DNA from: a virus
Length of the DNA: 26,197 nucleotides
Strand: one strand, 5' to 3'
IMG/VR virus record: IMGVR_UViG_3300048091_000100
Span: 1 to 26,197 of that record
This document shows, one piece after another, positions 4,242-25,611 of the stretch (position 1 is the stretch's first letter; each line of letters starts with the position of its first letter). The position numbers and the translations under genes were made by a program. The notes beneath the pieces were generated by a model that was given only the letters and a program-made list of their open reading frames with translations, ran no database searches and had not been told where the DNA came from.

Positions 4242-5888
4242 TTAAGCCAAGCCTGCTTGCTGCAGGGCCACGCTGGCGCCTGCTACATCGGTCGCCACTC
4301 CAGCCCCTTCACGAAGCGCAGCAGCGGCCTGTGTGAGGCCGTCAACAGCGCTCTCTTGCTCTTCCGCGCTCTGGACAGCCTTCTCATCGGCAAACCAGTC
4401 AGCGGGCGCCCCTGTGCCCTTCACCGCGTCCTTGGTCATCTTCTTGAAGTCCATGGTCGACGGGATCGACTTGTCGAACTGCGAAGCGCCGGCGAGAATC
4501 TGAACGCTCTCCTGGAAGGATGCGACGAGCTGGCGGCCTTCAGCCGTGTTCAGCGGGCTTTCGAAGGAGAATGTCGTCTCTTCGCCATCCAGTAGATCAG
4601 GGATCTTGCCGACGTCGAAATGACGGTTATGAAGGGCAAGCTGGAAGCCAGTGTCGAGCAGCGGCAGGTGATACTCGCTTTCGATCGGCCCGAAGAATGG
4701 CAGGGCAGCACGGCGGAACTCCGCAATGCGCTGCTGCGTCTCATAGGCCGTCATCTCGCGGGTATCGGGCAGGAACAGCTTATTCAGCAGGAACGCTTCG
4801 GCGATCATCTCGCGAACGTCCTTCTTCATGTCCATGCCGATCGATACGTTGCCGGTCTCGATGGTCTGGAACAGCTTGCGGATATCGGCATCGTCGTCGA
4901 TGTCCACGTACGTCATGCCGCCGGCATACATGTTGACCGCATCGCGGAACATCTCGCCTCTGGCGACCGTCGGCGGGTCCACGGCCTTTTCACCCTGCTC
5001 GAGGATGATGCGGGCCATCGACTGGATCATGCGGCCATCGGGCAAAGAGTTGATCGTCGCCGGCGAGAAACCTTGCGGGATGTTCGCCAGCGTGCGCCAG
5101 CGAGGGACCACGTAGCTGAATACCGGCAGGCCAGCCTCACCGAGGATCTGCTCGTGGTCTAGATCCACATAGAGCGAGATGAACGGCGTCTTCTTGTACT
5201 GGCGGCGCTTGGCCTTATCGTCGCCATAGATGTCGTCGACCGGCATCAGGATATGGCGGACGTTGAATTCCTTTGACGGATCCGTCTCGCAAGCCTTCTT
5301 GATATCGGCATGTACCTTGTCACCGTAGAGCTTCTTCAGGTTCCGCGCCGTCTTCTTCATCTTACGATGGAGCGCATCGACCTTGCCGACCTCGTTCAGC
5401 ATCCATGCGCAGTCGCGGGGATGCCATGCCCTGAACAGCATGTGATCGCGGGTTGGTGATTCCTCGACCGAAATCACGCCATTGCCGAATGCTACCCAGT
5501 CGTGATCGACCTCGATCGTGGCGGCCGTGAAGTTGGCGCGACGATCATAGACCAGTCTGCGATAACGCTTCGTGGCATATTCCAGCCAGCGCGCGGCGGC
5601 CGGATCCTCGTCGATCTCTTCCCGTCCGGTCTTCACCTCAAACCAGTCGCCTTGACGAAGCATGGCCGATGGCGCATTGCCGAGCGTCTCGCGAGCCTGA
5701 ACCGGATAGCTTTCCATCAGGTTCGTCGTGAAATCGTCCCCGAGGGAAAGCTCACGCGTGAAGTCCGTGCGCAGCGGGTAGTAGTTCTCGGCGATATCCT
5801 GGCACAGGCTATCCCATGGCTGCTTCTTGCTGAACAGCGCCGCGCCGATGCGGCAAAGCTCCTTTGCGCGGCTATCTTCCAAGATCAA
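4242..5888 (-). CDS. Portal / head-tail connector protein
   Basis: 548 residues, which matches the usual 500-560 of T7 gp8-like head-tail connectors. The protein would form the dodecameric ring at one capsid vertex through which DNA passes. Recognisable features are the N-terminal helical region, WDSLCQDIAENYYP near residue 25, a segment with TLGNAPSAMLRQGDWF, VDHDWVAFGNGVISVEE near 130, and the C-terminal PLLDTGFQLALHNRHF region that resembles connector proteins. The start is TTG (TTGA overlap with the upstream small gene); no better ATG is near the conserved N-terminus, and TTG fits the coupling seen throughout. The C-terminal ~50 residues are Ala/Gln-rich. It lies directly after the terminase genes, as is typical. 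Confidence 0.85.
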   Translation of the reverse strand: MILEDSRAKELCRIGAALFSKKQPWDSLCQDIAENYYPLRTDFTRELSLGDDFTTNLMESYPVQARETLGNAPSAMLRQGDWFEVKTGREEIDEDPAAARWLEYATKRYRRLVYDRRANFTAATIEVDHDWVAFGNGVISVEESPTRDHMLFRAWHPRDCAWMLNEVGKVDALHRKMKKTARNLKKLYGDKVHADIKKACETDPSKEFNVRHILMPVDDIYGDDKAKRRQYKKTPFISLYVDLDHEQILGEAGLPVFSYVVPRWRTLANIPQGFSPATINSLPDGRMIQSMARIILEQGEKAVDPPTVARGEMFRDAVNMYAGGMTYVDIDDDADIRKLFQTIETGNVSIGMDMKKDVREMIAEAFLLNKLFLPDTREMTAYETQQRIAEFRRAALPFFGPIESEYHLPLLDTGFQLALHNRHFDVGKIPDLLDGEETTFSFESPLNTAEGRQLVASFQESVQILAGASQFDKSIPSTMDFKKMTKDAVKGTGAPADWFADEKAVQSAEEQESAVDGLTQAAAALREGAGVATDVAGASVALQQAGLA

Positions 5889-6130
5889 CCTGCCTGGCCA
5901 AGAAGGCTATTTGTGTAAGACGTCGTCCCTGCCCCAGAGGAGGCTCTGGACGCGCGCGAGGCCGCAGAGGTGAGAACGGTCGCAGCACGACCGGAACGCG
6001 CCTGAGCGTCTACTGCTGCCTTGCGGCGCGCTTCCTTGATCGACGGATCTTCCTCATCGGGCATCCGCGTCTCAGGCGTCGGTGTCGTCGTAGTGGTGGT
6101 AGAGCCACCTCCGCCGAACAGCTTGCCCAT
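5885..6130 (-). CDS. Small low-complexity protein between terminase and portal
   Basis: 81 residues, ATG start preceded by AAAAGGAGATAG. The protein starts MGKLFGGGG and then has a run of six threonines and a proline-rich stretch, an acidic patch (PDEEDPSIKEARRK), and a Ser/Arg/Ala-rich tail. It looks disordered at the N-terminus with one charged helix. Short proteins with MGxLFGG and Ser/Thr runs occur in this position in many podovirus-like prophages, but I know no assigned role. The stop overlaps the portal TTG start. It could be a connector-associated or internal virion protein. Confidence 0.65.
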   Translation of the reverse strand: MGKLFGGGGSTTTTTTPTPETRMPDEEDPSIKEARRKAAVDAQARSGRAATVLTSAASRASRASSGAGTTSYTNSLLGQAG

Positions 6131-12025: not shown

Positions 12026-13480
12026 CTAGAAAAGCTCCCTTGCATTCTGCTGTGCCTTGTAGGCCATTCCGTAGCTGGTGGAGTTGCCATCCCATGCGAT
12101 ATCTCTGCGGCGGGGAAACTCACTCTCTCGAGACAGGGAAAGAAGGATCTCGGCCTTGCCCTCCGTCTCATCCATTAGTGATTTCCAGACGCCCCACTCC
12201 GATGTTCCCTCACCCGGCTCCATGCCGGCCAGGATAGGCCGCGGCTGAAAGGGAATGATCACCTGGTCAGCGTCCTTATCCATATTGCCGATGAGGTCGC
12301 GATAGGTCGGACGGCGATGCAAGACAGCTCTCAATCGCTTTTCGACGCTACTGCCCTGGTATTCCTGAAACGCTGATTTCTTGAGGTGGGTGAGAGCGAT
12401 GACGGGAATATCCAGCTCCATCGCGAGGTCTTTTAGTTTCGAAGTGGCTATCTGCCCCTGCTTGAACTCGTCTTCATACTGCATCTTGCCTTCCCACTGG
12501 ATCTTGCCGATGTGGTCGACGAAGACGGCGCCGATGCCATGGGACTTCTTAAGCGCCTTGGCCTTCCGGCCGATCTGATCGAGCGTCATCTTGCGGCAGT
12601 CGATCTCGATATGCTTCGACCGCTTGATCTCGATGCCTGCTTCCAGGAGCATCTGCACTTCCTGATCAGAGACGCGGCCGCGCTGCTGTTGACGGGCCGA
12701 GATGCCGGTGCGCCTTGCTTGTTCGCGCATGATGATCTGCTTTACCGTCATTTCACCGCTGTAGAGGAAAACCGGATCCTTCTTGGCAATCTCGAACATG
12801 CACTGCATGGCCAGAGCCGTCTTGCCCTGCTTCACGCCGCCGCCGATGATGATGAGCTGGCCTTTCTGCCAAGGCCCGGTGAGCTGCATGATCTCCGGGA
12901 TGCCAGGATCAATGCCTTCCGCCTTCCTGCCCATGTGCGCCTCGTTGACGGCATCGAATGAGCTATCGATGGCATCGGATAGGGAAAAGCTCGCTTCCTC
13001 GCCAGCAAGGCTCTGTGTGACCTCTGCAAGGCGCTGACGAAGGGCCGTGATGTCATCCGGGATTTTCAGTTCGTCCTCGAAAGCGATCTGCCGGAGGTCA
13101 TCAGCAAGCCCGTGGATCTCACGACGTGCAGCGGCGGCCGTGATGGCTGCGCACCAATCTGGAATGCCGAGGTATCCGACGACGTCACCCATAAGGCGGG
13201 ACATATATTGAGAAACACTCATACCGCCGATGTTGGTGAATTCGCGCAGGCGGTCTTTCAGGGTGATCGTGCTGAATGACTTGCCCGCGGCGCGAAGATC
13301 GACCATCGCTTCGAACATCTGCTGATGAAGCCTCTCTTCGAAGTGCCGCGCTTCGAAATTCGAAGGGACCGCTTCCATGCAGTCGTTCTTCATTAGGAGA
13401 GCGCCGAGGAGCGCTTGTTCTGCTTCGAGCGCGTCAGGGAGCGTCGGAGATCCGTGGATATCGCGTGGATGGGCGTTCAT
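12026..13480 (-). CDS. DnaB-type replicative DNA helicase
   Basis: 484 residues, typical of DnaB. The enzyme unwinds DNA at the phage fork as a hexamer. The N-terminal DnaB domain includes LEAEQALLGALLM at about 18-30. The RecA-like core has Walker A GGVKQGKT at 214-221, Walker B AVFVDHI at 318-324 (D322), the catalytic-type Glu within LYSGEM at 239-244, motif H3 ALTHL at 362-366, and a late motif RRPTYRDLIGNMDKDADQVI matching the DnaB R-x-S-DLR...DAD signature. All hallmark residues seem present. It overlaps the methyltransferase stop by 4 bases. No dedicated primase domain is seen, so a host or elsewhere-encoded primase is expected. Confidence 0.9.
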   Translation of the reverse strand: MNAHPRDIHGSPTLPDALEAEQALLGALLMKNDCMEAVPSNFEARHFEERLHQQMFEAMVDLRAAGKSFSTITLKDRLREFTNIGGMSVSQYMSRLMGDVVGYLGIPDWCAAITAAAARREIHGLADDLRQIAFEDELKIPDDITALRQRLAEVTQSLAGEEASFSLSDAIDSSFDAVNEAHMGRKAEGIDPGIPEIMQLTGPWQKGQLIIIGGGVKQGKTALAMQCMFEIAKKDPVFLYSGEMTVKQIIMREQARRTGISARQQQRGRVSDQEVQMLLEAGIEIKRSKHIEIDCRKMTLDQIGRKAKALKKSHGIGAVFVDHIGKIQWEGKMQYEDEFKQGQIATSKLKDLAMELDIPVIALTHLKKSAFQEYQGSSVEKRLRAVLHRRPTYRDLIGNMDKDADQVIIPFQPRPILAGMEPGEGTSEWGVWKSLMDETEGKAEILLSLSRESEFPRRRDIAWDGNSTSYGMAYKAQQNARELF

Positions 13481-19367: not shown

Positions 19368-19676
19368 TTACGCGGCCTCCGCAGCGGCGATCGCACGCCT
19401 CATGACCTTCGTCATGGTCTTGTGTCCGCACTGGTCGTTGAACTGGAAAATGGAAAGACCGCCGCATGCCTTGCGCAGGATCATGATGGCGGCGCCGTAG
19501 TCGTCAGAGCTCGGTTGCAGGCGCTGGATCGCGCCGACCATGCAGAACCGGCAAGCCTTTTCATCCAGCGGCTTCACCTGGTTGCCTTGGCGATCGAACG
19601 CGATATCGCGCTGCGCCCACCGGTGCGGGACGTCGATGATCGCCAGAGCGTCTTTCAGGACGGCGGCGGCGCTCAT
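19368..19676 (-). CDS. DUF6197-like phage protein
   Basis: 102 residues, ATG overlapping the Cro-like gene stop by 4 bases. The protein shows W-A-Q-R-D-I-A-F-D then DEKACRFCMVGAIQRLQP, a later FNDQCGHKTMTKVM and an Ala-rich end. This order (Ala-x-x-Cys/x-G-A-I, helix, F-N-D) is typical of DUF6197, common in phages and prophages of Actinobacteria and Proteobacteria. Function unknown. Being the second gene of the early operon, it is expressed early after the switch. Length agrees with the family. Confidence 0.65.
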   Translation of the reverse strand: MSAAAVLKDALAIIDVPHRWAQRDIAFDRQGNQVKPLDEKACRFCMVGAIQRLQPSSDDYGAAIMILRKACGGLSIFQFNDQCGHKTMTKVMRRAIAAAEAA

Positions 19677-19870
19677 GCTGCGCTCTCTGTCAGGAAATCT
19701 TCCATCGTGACCTGGCCGCCTGTGGCCGCCTTGATCTTGGCGATGAGATCGATCTGCGGCGTACGTTCACGCCGGAGAATCCTCGTGATCGTGGACGGTG
19801 CCACGTCAATGCTGGCTGCGAAGGCAACCGGCTTGATGTCGTTTTCTTTGAGATATTGTTCCAGCTTCAT
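19673..19870 (-). CDS. Cro-like HTH regulator
   Basis: 65 residues from ATG 19870; an earlier in-frame ATG lies within the operator region and is rejected. The helix-turn-helix spans about residues 13-35 (KPVAFAASIDVAPSTITRIL) and the rest is a small dimer-type tail (QIDLIAKIKAATGGQVTMED). It is divergently arranged to the CI-like gene and its promoter overlaps three of four operators, the classic place of Cro. It would repress repressor synthesis and start the lytic early operon. A YdaS-type regulator is an alternative. There is no clear Shine-Dalgarno, only GGCAAATTACGCTGC upstream. Confidence 0.8.
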   Translation of the reverse strand: MKLEQYLKENDIKPVAFAASIDVAPSTITRILRRERTPQIDLIAKIKAATGGQVTMEDFLTESAA

Positions 19871-19880
19871 GCAGCGTAAT

Positions 19881-19950
19881 TTGCCACATGGCATATATTT
19901 GTCAACTGGCAATTTGCCAACTGGCGCTGGAAATATTTCCCACGTGGCAA
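19881..19950. promoter_or_regulatory. Four-site operator array between cro-like and repressor genes
   Basis: Four 14-base palindromes of the form TTGCCA-NN-TGGCAA: 19881-19894, 19899-19912, 19914-19927 and 19937-19950, each with at most three mismatches in the half sites. They cover the 91-base gap between the divergent cro-like and repressor genes. The same motif appears four times at 22107-22174. It is the likely binding site of the CI-like repressor and Cro-like protein. Confidence 0.85.
19892..19920 (-). promoter_or_regulatory. Leftward early promoter of the Cro operon
   Basis: On the leftward strand a -35 TTGGCA (19920-19915), a 17-base spacer and a -10 TATATG (19897-19892) are near consensus. 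Three operators overlap the -35, spacer and -10. Transcription would start about 10-15 bases before the Cro-like ATG. Direct read; strength not tested. Confidence 0.6.
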
Positions 19951-19961
19951 ATAGCTAGACC

Positions 19962-20666
19962 ATGGCAAACCGAATCCGCGAAATCCGCAAATCCAAGAAG
20001 CTAACGCTGGAGGAACTGGCCGACGTTTCCGGCATCTCCTTCACCCATTTGTCACGGATGGAGAGCGGGAAGCGCGGCCTAAGTCTGGAGAACGCTATCA
20101 GGGTGGCGAAGGCACTGGATGTCGACCCTTCAGAGGTCACGGACGAGTTCGACCATGAGCAGCTCACTGAAGCCAGCAATATGCCGATGTCCCAAAAAGG
20201 AACAGAAGGCCCTTCGCAAGACATCCCTGAAATTGACCTGATCGCTGGCCTCGGCGGCGGCGGTCTCGCTGCGTTGGAGGTCTCCAACCACAACGGTATC
20301 TCGTTTGCACGGGAGGCAGTCCGTGATCACTGGCGTTTGCCGGATTGGATGCTCGGCCGCATGGGCGTCCGTCCGCAGCACGTCGCTGCCTTCCCATCAC
20401 GAGGCGATTCCATGACGCCTACAATCGATGATGGGGATGTTATTTTCGTCGACACTCGGCACAGGGTTCCCTCGCCTCCTGGCATCTACGCACTTGCCGA
20501 CGAGTTTGGTGGGGTGGTTGTGAAACGCCTCGAGGTGACATCCAGGCCTGGCGATGAGATGATCAAGGTTCAGATCTCATCCGACAACCCGCGCCATACG
20601 ACGCGCGAGCTCAACCTCGATGAGATCCAGATCGTGGGCCGCTATATCGGCCGGTTCACGATCTGA
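19962..20666 (+). CDS. CI/LexA-type phage repressor with S24 peptidase domain
   Basis: 234 residues, ATG at 19962. It keeps the prophage silent by binding operators and can be inactivated by RecA-stimulated self-cleavage. The N-terminal HTH is at about residues 15-37 (TLEELADVSGISFTHLSRME). A linker holds a likely cleavage site, A95-G96 in LIAGLGGGG. The C-terminal S24 domain has the nucleophile S150 in GDSM and the general base K188 in VVVKRLE, 38 residues apart. All catalytic residues are present. A terminator follows directly. There is no clear Shine-Dalgarno, as is common for repressor maintenance transcripts. It very likely controls both operator arrays. Confidence 0.9.
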   Translation: MANRIREIRKSKKLTLEELADVSGISFTHLSRMESGKRGLSLENAIRVAKALDVDPSEVTDEFDHEQLTEASNMPMSQKGTEGPSQDIPEIDLIAGLGGGGLAALEVSNHNGISFAREAVRDHWRLPDWMLGRMGVRPQHVAAFPSRGDSMTPTIDDGDVIFVDTRHRVPSPPGIYALADEFGGVVVKRLEVTSRPGDEMIKVQISSDNPRHTTRELNLDEIQIVGRYIGRFTI

Positions 20667-20671
20667 TCGGA

Positions 20672-20695
20672 GGGCGGGGTCACCGCCCTTTCCTT
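20672..20695 (+). terminator. Terminator after repressor gene
   Basis: GGGCGG at 20672-20677 pairs with CCGCCC at 20683-20688 around a 5-base loop, followed by TTTCCTTCCTT. It lies 5 bases after the repressor stop and 5 bases before the stop of the converging S24-like gene. The U-tract is interrupted, and the opposite strand has an A-rich side, so it may also serve the converging transcript less well. Confidence 0.65.
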
Positions 20696-20700
20696 CCTTG

Positions 20701-21051
20701 TCAGGCGATAAATCGCCGCTCGTCCCGGATGCGGATGTCGGCGACGACAATGCCGACAACAACATCATTGAACTTCTCTCGGTGCATGTGGTGAGACCGG
20801 TAGACCTGGTTCTCGCGGGAGAGAAGCAGGTCTCCATCTAGGCCGAGTATGTTGGTAACCCGGAACAACTCTATACCTAGCCCAGCATCGACGAGGTAAA
20901 CGCCCTCCCCTTCGTACGAGGTTACCGGCGCGGTGAGCACATAGTCGCGCCCGCCGCGAAGTGTTGGTTCCATGGTGTCTCCGAACACTGGGTGAACTCG
21001 AAACCGGTCGGACAGCGCAGTGACCGACGTCGACCTTCCATCCGCATTCAT
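20701..21051 (-). CDS. Stand-alone S24-like domain protein with replaced catalytic residues
   Basis: 116 residues, ATG preceded by CGGAGGG. The fold resembles the C-terminal domain of LexA/CI repressors: FGDTMEPTLRGGRDYVLT at residues 23-40, GEGVYLVDAGLGIELFRVTN at 48-67. The position of the Ser nucleophile is T26 (GDTM instead of GDSM) and that of the Lys base is R64; the spacing of 38 equals S150-K188 in the repressor. There is no HTH. Self-cleavage is therefore unlikely. It could pair with the repressor's oligomerisation surface as an antirepressor or stabiliser. It converges on the repressor gene, suggesting coordinated control. Confidence 0.75.
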   Translation of the reverse strand: MNADGRSTSVTALSDRFRVHPVFGDTMEPTLRGGRDYVLTAPVTSYEGEGVYLVDAGLGIELFRVTNILGLDGDLLLSRENQVYRSHHMHREKFNDVVVGIVVADIRIRDERRFIA

Positions 21052-21335
21052 TTTGCACCCTCCGTAACAAGAGTGTTCACCACATTCCGCATTTCCCCCT
21101 GATTAACACAATTGAGAATTGCAGAAACACGCAAAACAAAAGTAGTCTGCAGTCGCATGTTGAAATTTCCGATCATCATTGCGTTATCGTCATATGAAGA
21201 CGAGGCTGATTTTATAGGTAGTCTCGCCCTCTCCTTATTTGCCCCCGGACAGCGCCCCTCCTGTTGCCAACTCAACCTATCGTAATAAACCCGCGCGCTA
21301 GCTTCTAGGGCTTCAAGCGTATGGCCAGTGGCCAA
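21048..21335 (-). CDS. Doubtful small ORF upstream of S24-like gene
   Basis: An open frame of 95 codons whose stop overlaps the S24-like ATG (ATGA). Its first half lies in AT-rich sequence that also holds the start region of the divergent Arc-like gene, and no ribosome site fits the first ATG. A shorter form from an internal ATG (MMIGNFN or MRLQTTFV) would be 36-43 residues. The strong Shine-Dalgarno of the S24-like gene lies in its last codons. It may be chance or a short leader. The 320-base stretch 21052-21372 otherwise shows AT-rich regulatory-looking DNA without a clear gene. Confidence 0.25.
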   Translation of the reverse strand: MATGHTLEALEASARVYYDRLSWQQEGRCPGANKERARLPIKSASSSYDDNAMMIGNFNMRLQTTFVLRVSAILNCVNQGEMRNVVNTLVTEGAK

Positions 21336-21361
21336 TATTTATTTGGTTAATTGTTACAGCT

Positions 21362-21374
21362 ATGCATTTTGCAT
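21362..21374. promoter_or_regulatory. Short inverted repeat at the Arc-like start
   Basis: ATGCA-TTT-TGCAT forms a perfect 5-base inverted repeat that overlaps the ATG of the Arc-like gene. Arc/MetJ-type proteins often bind short palindromes at their own promoters, so this is a candidate autoregulatory site. The sequence is short and could be chance. Confidence 0.35.
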
Positions 21375-21651
21375 GACCGATCAAAGTCCTAGCCGATCCC
21401 TGGACAAGATAATCATCCGGCTGCCGGATGGGCTAAAGGAAAGAATCCGCATGGTTGCGGTGAAGAACGATCGATCGGTCAACGCCGAGCTGCTGATGCT
21501 GCTCGAGCGGACCTACCCGCCAGAGTCGATCGTCGATGATTTTGTTCGAGACATCGCAGCTTTGGTGAGGCGGTCTCCAGCCGACGACCAGGCTCGGCTT
21601 TGGAAGTCAATCATCGAGAAGGTTGAGACTGCTAGTCGAGGAATGAAGTAA
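21373..21651 (+). CDS. Arc-like ribbon-helix-helix DNA-binding protein
   Basis: 92 residues from ATG 21373; an in-frame GTG 15 codons earlier is possible. Residues 10-50 match the Arc family (PF03869): KIIIRLPDGLKERIRMVAVK then RSVNAELLMLLERTYPP, with the beta-strand (KIIIRLP) for DNA contact and two helices. The C-terminal 40 residues are a charged helix (DFVRDIAALVRRSPADDQAR). Arc-like proteins are phage regulators of lysogeny or antirepressor genes; here it lies between the two operator arrays and next to the S24-like gene. Ribosome site is weak. Likely a repressor of neighbouring promoters. Confidence 0.8.
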   Translation: MTDQSPSRSLDKIIIRLPDGLKERIRMVAVKNDRSVNAELLMLLERTYPPESIVDDFVRDIAALVRRSPADDQARLWKSIIEKVETASRGMK

Positions 21652-21737
21652 GGGGCTTTCCACCCTTCTAACAACTACCCTCAGAGCAAGTATCTTCTAC
21701 AAGAGAATAACCTTTAGAAATTCAGCTTTATATATTG

Positions 21738-21782
21738 GACCCGCAGATTTGCGACCCTATTGACCCGCAGATTTGCGACCCT
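21738..21782. repeat. Two 21-base direct repeats at 24-base period (iteron-like)
   Basis: Two identical 21-base copies at 21738-21758 and 21762-21782, each starting GACCCGCAG and containing the inverted repeat CGCA-GATT-TGCG. The second overlaps the stop of the winged-helix gene. AT-rich DNA lies beside them (21685-21737). The remaining stretch 21652-21737 holds no gene. They could be binding sites for the adjacent winged-helix protein or iterons of a replication origin. Confidence 0.8.
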
Positions 21783-22098
21783 AGCCGAATTCAAACGGCA
21801 AGCGGATGTAGTAGACATTCGGCTTTCGATGTTCCTTCACGACTACCAAGACGCGCTCGTCGACCAACTCTGAGATCGCCCGGATAACTTTGTCCTCGGA
21901 GATCTGCAGGCGGTTGGCGATCTGCTTGTGCGTGTACCAGCAGCACTGGTCGTGCCCGTTCATCTTTTTCGCCAGCCAATAGCCAACGCGAAACGCCCTA
22001 TCAGACAGGGCGTCCATTTCACAAACGTAGTCGAGCCACTTGCGGCGCTTTTCGTAGAAGGCGGCTGCCGCTTCGCCATTGTCGTTTCTCTTGAGCAT
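21781..22098 (-). CDS. Winged-helix / HTH_36-like DNA-binding protein
   Basis: 105 residues from ATG 22098 (AAAGAGGG upstream); a longer frame starting upstream would translate the operator array and is rejected. A helical N-terminus ([21 protein letters not shown]) precedes a winged helix with [19 protein letters not shown] at 54-72, [17 protein letters not shown], and the wing VYYIRL. This is the layout of HTH_36 or plasmid/phage Rep-type N-domains. It is under the second operator array and divergent to the pentapeptide operon. Repeats follow its stop. It may be an early activator or initiator; the target repeats suggest DNA binding close by. Confidence 0.75.
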
Positions 22099-22106
22099 TC
22101 CCTCTT

Positions 22107-22174
22107 TTGCCACACGGCAAGATTTTTTGCCAGATGGCATTTTGCCACTTGTCAATCTTTTTGCCAGATGGCAT
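22107..22174. promoter_or_regulatory. Second four-site operator array
   Basis: Four further copies of TTGCCA-NN-TGGCAA: 22107-22120, 22127-22140, 22142-22155 and 22161-22174. Mismatches are small (TTGCCACACGGCAA, TTGCCAGATGGCAT twice, TTGCCACTTGTCAA). They lie between the divergent winged-helix gene and the pentapeptide operon. The same consensus and number of sites as the array near the repressor suggests the same regulator binds both. Confidence 0.85.
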
Positions 22175-22177
22175 ATT
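22149..22177 (+). promoter_or_regulatory. Rightward early promoter
   Basis: A -35 TTGTCA at 22149-22154, a 17-base spacer and a -10 CATATT at 22172-22177. Operators at 22142-22155 and 22161-22174 cover the -35 and -10. It would drive the pentapeptide/recombination operon with an ~75-base leader that has no other visible feature. Confidence 0.6.
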
Positions 22178-22257
22178 CCTCTCATCAGCCGACGACGACT
22201 GAGCCCCGCAAGGAAGCAGCGAGACGTCGATCGGCGCAAATGGAGATGAGGGCAATC

Positions 22258-23124
22258 ATGAAATTCGATGTACTCGACAGGTTCACAGGCGACGTGAAGT
22301 TCACGGCGGAGATCGATTGCGACGACAGCGCGTTGCCTTCTCTCAAGCTGGGGCTCGCCATCAAGTGGGCGGTCAAGGAAAAGAAGGACCTCAGCGGGGC
22401 CTACCTCAGCGGGGCCAACCTCAGCAGGGCCAACCTCAGCGGGGCCTACCTCAGCGGGGCCAACCTCAGCGGGGCCAACCTCAGCAGGGCCAACCTCAGC
22501 GGGGCCTACCTCAGCGGGGCCAACCTCAGCGGGGCCTACCTCAGCAGGGCCAACCTCAGCGGGGCCTACCTCAGCGGGGCCTACCTCAGCAGGGCCAACC
22601 TCAGCGGGGCCTACCTCAGCGGGGCCAACCTCAGCGGGGCCTACCTCAGCAGGGCCAACCTCAGCGGGGCCTACCTCAGCGGGGCCTACCTCAGCAGGGC
22701 CAACCTCAGCGGGGCCTACCTCAGCGGGGCCAACCTCAGCGGGGCCTACCTCAGCGGGGCCGACCTCAGCGGGGCCTACCTCAAAGAAGCTAAGGATGCT
22801 GATCTCGCTATCGCTATGACGCGCATCCTTCCTGAAGGCGATCTGATCGGCTGGAAGAAGTGCGAGAGCGACGTGATCGTCAAGCTTCGCATTCCGGCTG
22901 AGGCAAAGCGCTCACATGCATTCGGACGCAAGTGCCGCGCCGAATATGCTGACGTACTGGAAGTAGTCGGTGGCGAAGTCGGTATTTCGATGCACGACGG
23001 CAAGACGAAATACGAAGTCGGCCAGCGCGTCACGCCAGACAAGTTCGATGAGAACTGGGTCGAAGAGTGCTCTTCCGGCATCCACTTCTTCATCACGAAG
23101 GAGGAGGCACTTGCTTATGTTTAA
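22258..23124 (+). CDS. Pentapeptide-repeat protein with DUF5758-like C-terminus
   Basis: 288 residues from ATG 22258, preceded by GATGAGGG; an earlier in-frame start would read the operator array backwards. Residues 1-43 form a short N-domain ([20 protein letters not shown]). Residues 44-178 are 27 pentapeptide repeats, A(N/Y/D)LSG or A(N/Y)LSR, which form a right-handed square beta helix; some such proteins mimic DNA and block gyrase. The last 110 residues ([31 protein letters not shown]) match the DUF5758 pattern, often fused behind pentapeptide repeats in phages. It is the first gene of the rightward early operon. Function unknown; DNA mimicry or host inhibition is plausible. Confidence 0.85.
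22387..22791 (+). repeat. 27-unit, 15-bp tandem repeat within the pentapeptide gene
   Basis: Each unit encodes one pentapeptide. Units are almost identical in DNA (CTCAGCGGGGCC followed by TAC, AAC or GAC; some use AGG for Arg in place of GGG). Differences are mostly one or two bases. Positions of the Arg variant (units 3, 7, 11, 14, 18, 21) suggest a 7-unit, 105-bp block duplicated, showing recent expansion. Such low divergence is prone to copy-number change. Confidence 0.9.
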
Positions 23125-23930: not shown

Positions 23931-24144
23931 CCTTTGCCATATGCGCGGCATCGAATGCTCGTGCCCTGCCGGCACCTGCCAGCAGCAGCCGAAGGCCGAA
24001 GCCGTCCCCCTCTTCCGCCCGACCAACCGGGACATGCTCTTCGTATTCGTCACTTGCATCGTCCTCGCCGTCATCGTCGGCGGGACCGTCCACGCCCTGC
24101 AGGTCGCTGAGCGCGAATATCAACTTCAACTGAGGATCGGATGA
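23914..24144 (+). CDS. Small single-pass membrane protein with Cys-rich N-terminus
   Basis: 76 residues from ATG 23914, preceded by AAGGAG. The N-terminal 25 residues contain C8, C15, C17 and C22 (CHMRGIECSCPAGTC), which could bind metal. One membrane helix lies at about 41-61 (MLFVFVTCIVLAVIVGGTVH), followed by a short charged tail. It overlaps the previous gene by 17 bases and the ERF gene by 4 bases. Such proteins in this place are seen in rhizobial phages without function. Topology is probably N-in or N-out uncertain. Confidence 0.65.
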   Translation: MIVPSDLCHMRGIECSCPAGTCQQQPKAEAVPLFRPTNRDMLFVFVTCIVLAVIVGGTVHALQVAEREYQLQLRIG

Positions 24145-24983
24145 TGGCTGATTTCCTCGACATCCCCGGTTCAGAACAATCAATCGGCGGCTTGGCGCTC
24201 GGCGTCGTCGCGAAAGCAAAACAGGCCATGGAGGCAAAGAAAATGGGAAATGCACTGGAAGTCCAGACGCCATCGCAGATCGCTGCCATGGAGCAACCTC
24301 GGGCCGTTCTGACGCCCATGGAGATGATCGACCGCGCTCTGTCGTCGAACGCCAACGTCGAGACGCTTACGCAGCTCATGAACCTGCAGGAACGTTGGGA
24401 AGCCAACCAGGCGCGCAAGGCGTTTGATGCAGCGATTGCCGCCGCCAAGTCTGAAATCCCACCGATCGCTCGAAATGCTACTGGTCACAACAGCAAGCGT
24501 TACGCAGACTTTTCGGCCATCGCCACGGTCGTCGATCCTATCCTCTCCAAATACGGATTGTCTTACCGGTTCAAGACCACACAGACCGACAAGATCAACG
24601 TGACCTGTGTCCTTTCCCACAAGGAAGGCCATGCAGAGGAAACGACGCTCTCCGGGGGTGCGGACACCAGCGGAAGCAAGAACGCCATTCAGGCTATCGG
24701 CTCTACCCTCACCTATTTGCAGCGCTATTCGCTTAACGCGGCGCTCGGTCTGTCTGCTTCGAATGACGATGACGGTAAGGCTGCCGGCGGGAACGGCTCG
24801 GTAAATGATGAGCAACGCATCGTTCTGCAGGACAAGATCGAGGAAGTAGGCGCAGATATCGCCAAGTTCTGCGAGCGCTGGAATGTCCCTGCCCTGTCTG
24901 ACTTCCCACAGAAGAAGTTCGACGAGGCCATCCAGTCCTTGAACCGCTTCGCGCAGCAGCAGCGGAGACAGGCAAATGGTTGA
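24141..24983 (+). CDS. erf: ERF-family single-strand annealing protein
   Basis: 280 residues, two adjacent ATG codons (24141 and 24144) overlapping the previous stop. It anneals complementary single strands in phage recombination, partner of a 5'-3' exonuclease. The ERF core is at about 94-212: AFDAAIAAAKSEIPPIAR at 95-111, SKRYADFSAIATVVDPILSK at 118-137, and the signature TYLQRYSLNAALGLSASNDD at 191-210. The N-terminal 60 residues are a variable leader. The C-terminal part (ALSDFPQKKFDEAIQSLNRF) resembles the charged tail of ERF proteins. Directly followed by a YqaJ exonuclease with an 8-base overlap, as is common. Confidence 0.9.
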   Translation: MMADFLDIPGSEQSIGGLALGVVAKAKQAMEAKKMGNALEVQTPSQIAAMEQPRAVLTPMEMIDRALSSNANVETLTQLMNLQERWEANQARKAFDAAIAAAKSEIPPIARNATGHNSKRYADFSAIATVVDPILSKYGLSYRFKTTQTDKINVTCVLSHKEGHAEETTLSGGADTSGSKNAIQAIGSTLTYLQRYSLNAALGLSASNDDDGKAAGGNGSVNDEQRIVLQDKIEEVGADIAKFCERWNVPALSDFPQKKFDEAIQSLNRFAQQQRRQANG

Positions 24984-25611
24984 GATCGAACAGGGCACGC
25001 CTGAATGGTTCGCCATCCGCTGCGGGAAGGTTACGGCCTCCCGCGTGGCTGATGTCGTTGCCACCACGAAAACAGGCTGGGGGGCTTCCCGAGCCAACTA
25101 TGCCGCGGAACTCATCGCAGAACGCCTCACAGGAGAGGCAGCAGAGGGTTTTACGTCCTCGACAATGCAATGGGGCACGGATCAGGAACCGCGTGCCAGG
25201 GCCTCGTATGAGTTCTACAGGAACGTGGACGTTCAGCAGGTTGGGTTCGTCATCCATCCGACGATTGCCGACTCCGGCGCATCTCCTGATGGCCTCGTAG
25301 GTGAGGATGGTCTTATCGAGATCAAGTGCCCGAATACGGCAACCCACATCGATACGCTCATCAAGCAGGTGATCCCGGCCAAGTATGTCACGCAGATGAT
25401 GTGGCAAATGGCCTGCACTGGTCGGAAGTGGTGCGATTTCGTCTCCTACGATCCTCGCCTGCCTGAGAGCATGCAGATGTTCGTTCGGCGGATCGATCGT
25501 GACGAATCCGTCATCAAGCACCTTGAGACGATGGTTGTTGAGTTCCTCGATCTTGAGGTCGTCTCCAAGGTCGAAGCACTACTCCGGATCTACGAGCAGG
25601 AGGCCGCTTGA
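24976..25611 (+). CDS. YqaJ/lambda-exo-type recombination exonuclease
   Basis: 211 residues, ATG overlapping the ERF gene by 8 bases. The PD-(D/E)XK nuclease motif is SPDGLV at 103-108 with D105, then E115 and K117 in LIEIKCP. The N-terminal QGTPEWFAIRCGKVTASR at 6-23 is the typical YqaJ opening and MQWGTDQEPRARASYEF at 64-80 is the second conserved region. The enzyme degrades one strand at DNA ends to feed the ERF protein. Catalytic residues are all present. Its stop overlaps the next ATG by one base (TGATG). Confidence 0.9.
   Translation: MVEIEQGTPEWFAIRCGKVTASRVADVVATTKTGWGASRANYAAELIAERLTGEAAEGFTSSTMQWGTDQEPRARASYEFYRNVDVQQVGFVIHPTIADSGASPDGLVGEDGLIEIKCPNTATHIDTLIKQVIPAKYVTQMMWQMACTGRKWCDFVSYDPRLPESMQMFVRRIDRDESVIKHLETMVVEFLDLEVVSKVEALLRIYEQEAA

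Follow-up and report, generated by a model that had tools for sequence, protein, structure and literature searches.

A probable lambda-type immunity region with four operators in each of two arrays in a phage related to viruses of rhizobia

Introduction

In phage lambda, two arrays of three operators lie 2.3 kb apart and are joined by an octamer plus a tetramer of the CI repressor (PMC8053113; PMC3708714; PMC5880393). From work on lambda it has also been argued that, when a set holds an odd number of operators, one dimer is left over and can recruit non-specific binding (PMC5880393). Operator number differs elsewhere: N15 and phiKO2 have three plus two (PMC4997575), phage 16-3 has two plus two (oL1, oL2, oR1, and oR2; PMC12429752), four operators have been reported in the OR of phage H-19B (PMC8065619), and 933W has been reported to be without OL3 and without short-range cooperativity (PMC5977221). 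The CB repressor of phiKO2 loops between its operator groups (PMC4997575; PMC8053113). The phiLM21-like prophages of S. meliloti had yielded no operators that match the ones of lambda or 16-3 (PMC12429752).

Here we analyze a window of 26,197 nucleotides from a soil phage that has relatives among the viruses of rhizobia and whose operator arrays are kept intact in about a dozen related phages. The window very probably contains the lambda-type immunity region of an alphaproteobacterial temperate phage, in which each array has four operators; CI would bind all eight, and the arrays are likely, by analogy with lambda, to be joined by a loop. That operator number varies between phages was known already; the new element is the presence of four sites in both arrays, for which we found no report in the open literature searched, nor did that search return the operator sequence TTGCCA-NN-TGGCAA.

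Results

The preliminary description of this DNA had listed eight palindromes in two groups of four, and both the grouping and the spacings are borne out base for base. The consensus is TTGCCA-NN-TGGCAA (TTGCCANNTGGCAA), with array 1 sites starting at 19881, 19899, 19914, and 19937 (18, 15, and 23 bp between starts), array 2 sites at 22107, 22127, 22142, and 22161 (20, 15, and 19 bp), and 2,226 bp from the start of one array to that of the other. Reading inwards from cro, array 1 consists of the outermost site TTGCCACATGGCAT (19881–19894), which adjoins cro and has a core with 95% pairwise identity over 11 loci; TTGTCAACTGGCAA (19899–19912), which carries the outward −35 element TTGACA on its complement; TTGCCAACTGGCGC (19914–19927), centered 41.5 bp 5′ of the cI start codon, the position of OR2 in lambda; and the innermost site TTCCCACGTGGCAA (19937–19950), which adjoins cI and overlaps its presumed promoter. 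Array 2 runs from the innermost site TTGCCACACGGCAA (22107–22120), degenerate or absent in several relatives, through TTGCCAGATGGCAT (22127–22140), whose core is invariant in 11 loci, and TTGCCACTTGTCAA (22142–22155), which contains the outward −35 element TTGTCA, to a second copy of TTGCCAGATGGCAT at the outermost position (22161–22174). None of the eight matches TTGCCANNTGGCAA perfectly; seven have a single mismatch and the site at 19914 has two.

A palindrome frequent by chance would have little meaning, a concern already raised in the preliminary description. At two or fewer mismatches, no further copy was present in the 26,197-base record, which is a viral-contig fragment and not a whole genome, and 150 first-order Markov simulations of the record sequence, scored at the same threshold, gave a mean of 0.9 sites and at most 5. 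Not one simulation contained an 80-bp span with three sites, against two observed spans that each hold four. Simulation and conservation together rule out a chance or low-complexity origin. There is no third array in the window, and the motif is nearly absent outside the arrays of related records: complete listings at one or no mismatch for seven related viral records gave just two extra-array matches, both in one record. Single operator-like sites with one mismatch each lie at 1853 and 3352 of contig IMGVR_UViG_3300037420_000520 (G406, the phage of locus L026), and are possible additional CI targets.

Array 1 lies between a leftward Cro-like gene (19673–19870, minus strand; 65 aa, HTH_3 E-value 1e-5), which opens the leftward operon, and a rightward gene for a CI-type repressor of 234 aa (19962–20666, plus strand). 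The repressor matches HTH_3 (7e-17), Peptidase_S24 (2e-12), and the PHROG 4 transcriptional repressor family (1e-35), and has an Ala-Gly hinge and a Ser/Lys dyad (Ser150 and Lys188 in the numbering of the window CI) that does not vary across 16 aligned homologues. Array 2 has on one side a winged-helix (HTH_36) gene transcribed inward, that is leftward (21781–22098, minus strand), and on the other the outward, rightward recombination operon. This operon opens with a gene for a pentapeptide-repeat protein (22258–23124, plus strand), the first large gene to the right of array 2, and further along the same arm are genes for an ERF annealing protein and a YqaJ exonuclease (24141–25611, plus strand) and the recombination gene NinB. 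The leftward, cro-side arm encodes a DnaB-like helicase (12026–13480, minus strand) and, as judged from ORF inspection, terminase-like and structural genes beyond it. The island between the arrays also holds an Arc-like ribbon-helix-helix gene (21376–21651, plus strand). The region thus has the components of a lambda-type switch: a repressor combining a Cro/C1-type HTH with an S24 autocleavage domain, a small divergent Cro-like HTH gene, two operator arrays that flank cI and overlap outward early promoters, and DnaB on the cro arm with ERF, YqaJ, and NinB on the other. It departs from the three operators per array of lambda in having four, a number that we do not treat as strict because known lambdoid phages vary too (three plus two, or an OR of four).

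Several smaller features of the region deserve mention. The winged-helix protein (21781–22098, minus strand) resembles the N-terminus of O-like replication initiators and could act as a second regulator of the switch; its gene is conserved in most relatives, where it is likewise transcribed inward from array 2. Between the Arc-like and winged-helix genes, positions 21740–21785 contain a short direct repeat, gacccgcagatttgcgaccctattgacccgcagatttgcgacccta. Within the pentapeptide-repeat gene, positions 22390–22780 form a nearly perfect tandem DNA repeat, CTCAGCGGGGCC(TAC/AAC), which suggests a recent repeat expansion. Just 3′ of array 2, the stretch at 22190–22245 (TGAGCCCCGCAAGGAAGCA..GTCGATCGGC) is shared with locus L005 (7050–7090) although the arrays differ, and could be either the leader of an early transcript or a small reading frame rich in Arg.

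Promoter elements are built into the operators. The predicted outward promoter PR (19878–19905, minus strand) combines the −35 element TTGACA (19905–19900) with a −10-like CAAATT (19883–19878), a poor match to TATAAT, across a 16-bp spacer; predicted PL (22149–22177, plus strand) has TTGTCA (22149–22154), a 17-bp spacer, and CATATT (22172–22177), and was also picked up by a consensus promoter scan. The outward −35 element is TTGACA in array 1 of 14 of 14 loci and TTG(A/T)CA in array 2 of 13 of 13. In every relative it falls within the second-outermost operator of each array, and the −10-like CAAATT or CATATT follows after 16 or 17 bp, at the outer edge of the outermost site. This built-in −35 element accounts for the odd base that the second-outermost site shows in either array, and the two arrays are therefore mirror images facing outward. 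The promoter overlap claimed in the preliminary description is thereby upheld by the conserved −35 elements, but the two operons that it named do not account for all the promoters: both arrays are flanked by divergent genes (cro and cI; the winged-helix gene and the rightward operon), which brings the number of promoters to as many as four instead of two, with the inward promoter of array 2 weakly defined.

Relatives of the repressor were collected from viral contigs and genomes, and additional arrays were found by pattern search. Array 1 occurs in 14 distinct loci, with its sites in the same order, and 13 of these carry both arrays; where a host is named, most carriers belong to the Rhizobiaceae, named hosts including Pseudorhizobium tarimense and Agrobacterium vitis. 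Array 1 adopts the registers 18-15-23, 18-14-23, 19-14-23, or 19-15-24. Array 2 keeps 20-15-19 in all 13, the innermost position being counted even where it is degenerate or lost. The earlier proposal that the two arrays belong together is supported. Their separation ranges from 1.2 to 2.5 kb, and the cargo genes between them differ. Pairwise identity over 11 loci is 83–100% in the operator cores, against 31–78% at the central two bases, 61–67% in the spacers, 27–36% in the flanks, and 48% at the third codon positions of cI, so that constraint acts on every site individually. Among the middle sites, three of the four cores reach 92–100% and the fourth 87%.

Wider sampling over 395 genomes of the family of Agrobacterium vitis CG78 (63 of its genus) added one genome with both arrays (G201, locus L031) and a few looser matches. 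In the ‘phages’ collection, the best CI matches were below 60% identity (29–30% for the full protein), and no isolate with these arrays was found there. The place that rexA/rexB take in lambda is filled in loci L039 (6694–7158), L018 (6694–7161), and L008 (5681–6160) by a gene that begins at the stop codon of cI or overlaps it and whose product is predicted to be a small membrane protein; it is a possible exclusion or lysogenic-conversion gene, and the L039 copy had no PHROG match.

A natural domain swap points to the part of CI that reads the motif. Carriers of the motif have CI N-termini 57–71% identical to that of the window, while most of their C-termini are just 31–41% identical; conversely, six loci with C-termini 56–93% identical to that of the window CI but N-termini only 16–24% identical do not have the motif. 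It tracks the N-terminal domain in every locus examined, including L023, where a related N-terminus is joined to a window-type C-terminus and the arrays are present. Two of the six swapped loci have palindromes of their own, ATACGnnnnnGTAT at 4887, 4919, 7045, and 7068 in L006 and ATAGGn6CCTAT at 5893, 5914, 7388, and 7422 in L011, in each case two near cI and two again 1.5–2.2 kb away; both places have changed specificity along with the repressor. De novo arrays were just partial in L005, where a GTAACA element is common to both regions, and in L012, where the sites are weaker. Because the Cro-like protein travels together with the N-terminal domain of CI and with the motif, CI and Cro cannot be told apart as binders by the swap. 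The palindromes are accordingly best read, as the preliminary description had predicted, as putative operators of a CI/Cro switch that cover promoters, a reading supported by conservation and by co-inheritance with the CI N-terminus.

Four operators per array is common in the family but not universal, and the three outer sites form the constant core. L042 has the innermost site missing from both arrays (3+3), L031 has it missing from array 2, and the contig that holds L041 has three sites in its array 2 region (L060); the innermost array 2 site is degenerate in L014, L017, and L018. The contrast drawn earlier between four sites per array and the usual three therefore stands for most relatives but is weakened by these three-site arrays in three of them and by the precedent of the H-19B OR (PMC8065619). 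Co-loss of array 2 site 1 with the inward winged-helix gene was considered as an explanation and proved inconsistent, as L018 and L042 retain the gene. Since L006 and L011 have about two clear sites per array, four sites are not tied to the two-array layout itself.

The island contains a further S24 protein, resembling the C-terminus of CI but with no HTH (20701–21051, minus strand), in which the catalytic Ser of CI is replaced (GDTM); counterparts are found in L046–L055 and in L006 (5636–5986). Wherever cI is visible the two genes are tail-to-tail, within about 35 bp. The catalytic Ser position is variable, being T, V, A, or E, and S in one. Most of the partner CIs combine a window-type C-terminus (78–94% identical) with an N-terminus of another, unrelated type, of which there are at least three, and the companion is absent from the loci examined with an L007-type C-terminus. 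A low-confidence model matches the C-terminal domains of LexA and 186 CI. The cleavage-dead companion is a candidate partner or dominant-negative form of CI, and could turn out to be more unusual than the operators.

Discussion

The conservation and the gene order enable us to propose a working model for the switch. CI dimers would occupy all eight 14-bp palindromes through their N-terminal HTH. Within array 1, PR, and with it cro and the replication and late arm, would be covered by the outer two sites, while site 3 has the position of an activating site for cI: a center 41.5 bp before the cI start corresponds to the activating position of lambda OR2, provided that the cI transcript has no leader, like that of lambda. 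Site 4, over the cI promoter, would provide negative feedback like that of OR3. The outer sites of array 2 would cover PL and the recombination arm, and its inner sites would control the inward winged-helix gene. Cro may antagonize CI at these sites, and RecA-stimulated self-cleavage of CI would release both arms. By analogy with lambda, CI oligomers would join the arrays into a loop of about 2.2 kb.

Looping is plausible from the lambda precedent and the shared anatomy. The preliminary description had taken four sites per array, in equal arrays at a distance, to suggest a looped octamer-type complex; the 3+3 layout of lambda, with its 2.3 kb loop, already does this (PMC8053113; PMC5880393), and an octamer is here what we infer from that analogy. 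Operators of one array are 18–19 bp apart in the outer pair and 20–24 bp in the inner pair, with 14–15 bp between pairs, which suggests lateral pairing of sites 1 with 2 and 3 with 4, about two helix turns apart, the pairs lying on roughly opposite faces. It is conceivable, though improbable, that two lateral CI tetramers form on each array in this way and that a pair of octamers, 16 CI subunits in all, links the arrays as a bifacial loop clamp; every dimer would then be paired, unlike the odd-numbered octamer-plus-tetramer of lambda.

The anatomy can be read in other ways. The arrays could be CI/Cro operators that act independently, without long-range CI contact, two outward operons needing repression. 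We hold this to be a genuine though lesser prospect: independent switches would tolerate the observed range of separations (1.2 to 2.5 kb), 933W is reported to do without OL3 and short-range cooperativity (PMC5977221), and CI C-terminal domains differ widely among carriers of the same arrays, but all separations remain within the looping range of lambda (2.3 kb; PMC8053113), and the inner spacing of array 2 is conserved though the outward promoter has no need of it. With sites 2 and 3 just 14–15 bp apart, their simultaneous occupancy is uncertain, and if they were never filled together each array would hold three alternating CI dimers, the lambda number. The 1-bp gap left between 14-bp operators at 15 bp center spacing would fit such exclusion, as would L042, L031, and L041/L060, where three sites suffice in one array or in both. 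The individual conservation of the middle-site cores (92–100% for three of four, and 87%) argues against it, and an offset of 15 bp would place the dimers on roughly opposite helix faces, where they could avoid a clash; on balance we find it unlikely.

The sites could also be bound mainly by another regulator, the Cro-like, Arc-like, or winged-helix protein, and by CI just incidentally. The co-inheritance of the Cro-like protein with the motif leaves room for this, as does the different specificity of Cro and CB in phiKO2 (PMC4997575). However, ORF inspection of the relatives reveals no other Arc-like gene between the arrays, L014 and L017 keep both arrays but have no winged-helix gene, and the motif follows the CI N-terminal domain in every locus examined, making this much the least likely of the alternatives. 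We favor occupancy of all eight sites by CI.

Within this family, nature provides related switches that have 4+4, 4+3, and 3+3 operators and whose CIs share their N-termini but have unrelated C-termini. An even-numbered natural system would test the odd-number argument from lambda, and the work supplies a concrete operator consensus for rhizobial prophages.

Among described systems, phiKO2 and the N15 immB region also have repressor operators between cB and cro together with a distant OL group, but their operators are 16 bp long and number three plus two, and their repressor is without self-cleavage residues. Rhizobium phage 16-3 is likewise a temperate rhizobial phage with oL and oR operators for its C repressor, and differs in having two operators per region (PMC12429752) rather than four per array. 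The OL/OR system of lambda has the same anatomy: cI lies between the arrays (about 2.3 kb apart in lambda), the operators overlap outward early promoters, cro is on one side with replication and recombination genes on opposite arms, and CI combines an HTH with an S24 domain. The two CI proteins are only distantly related, the window has four 14-bp operators per array where lambda has three of 17 bp, the cargo between cI and array 2 differs, and an inward winged-helix gene leaves array 2. When compared by site number, the Stx1 phage H-19B is reported to have four operators, a number given for OR only (PMC8065619), whereas the window has four in both arrays, with the register conserved.
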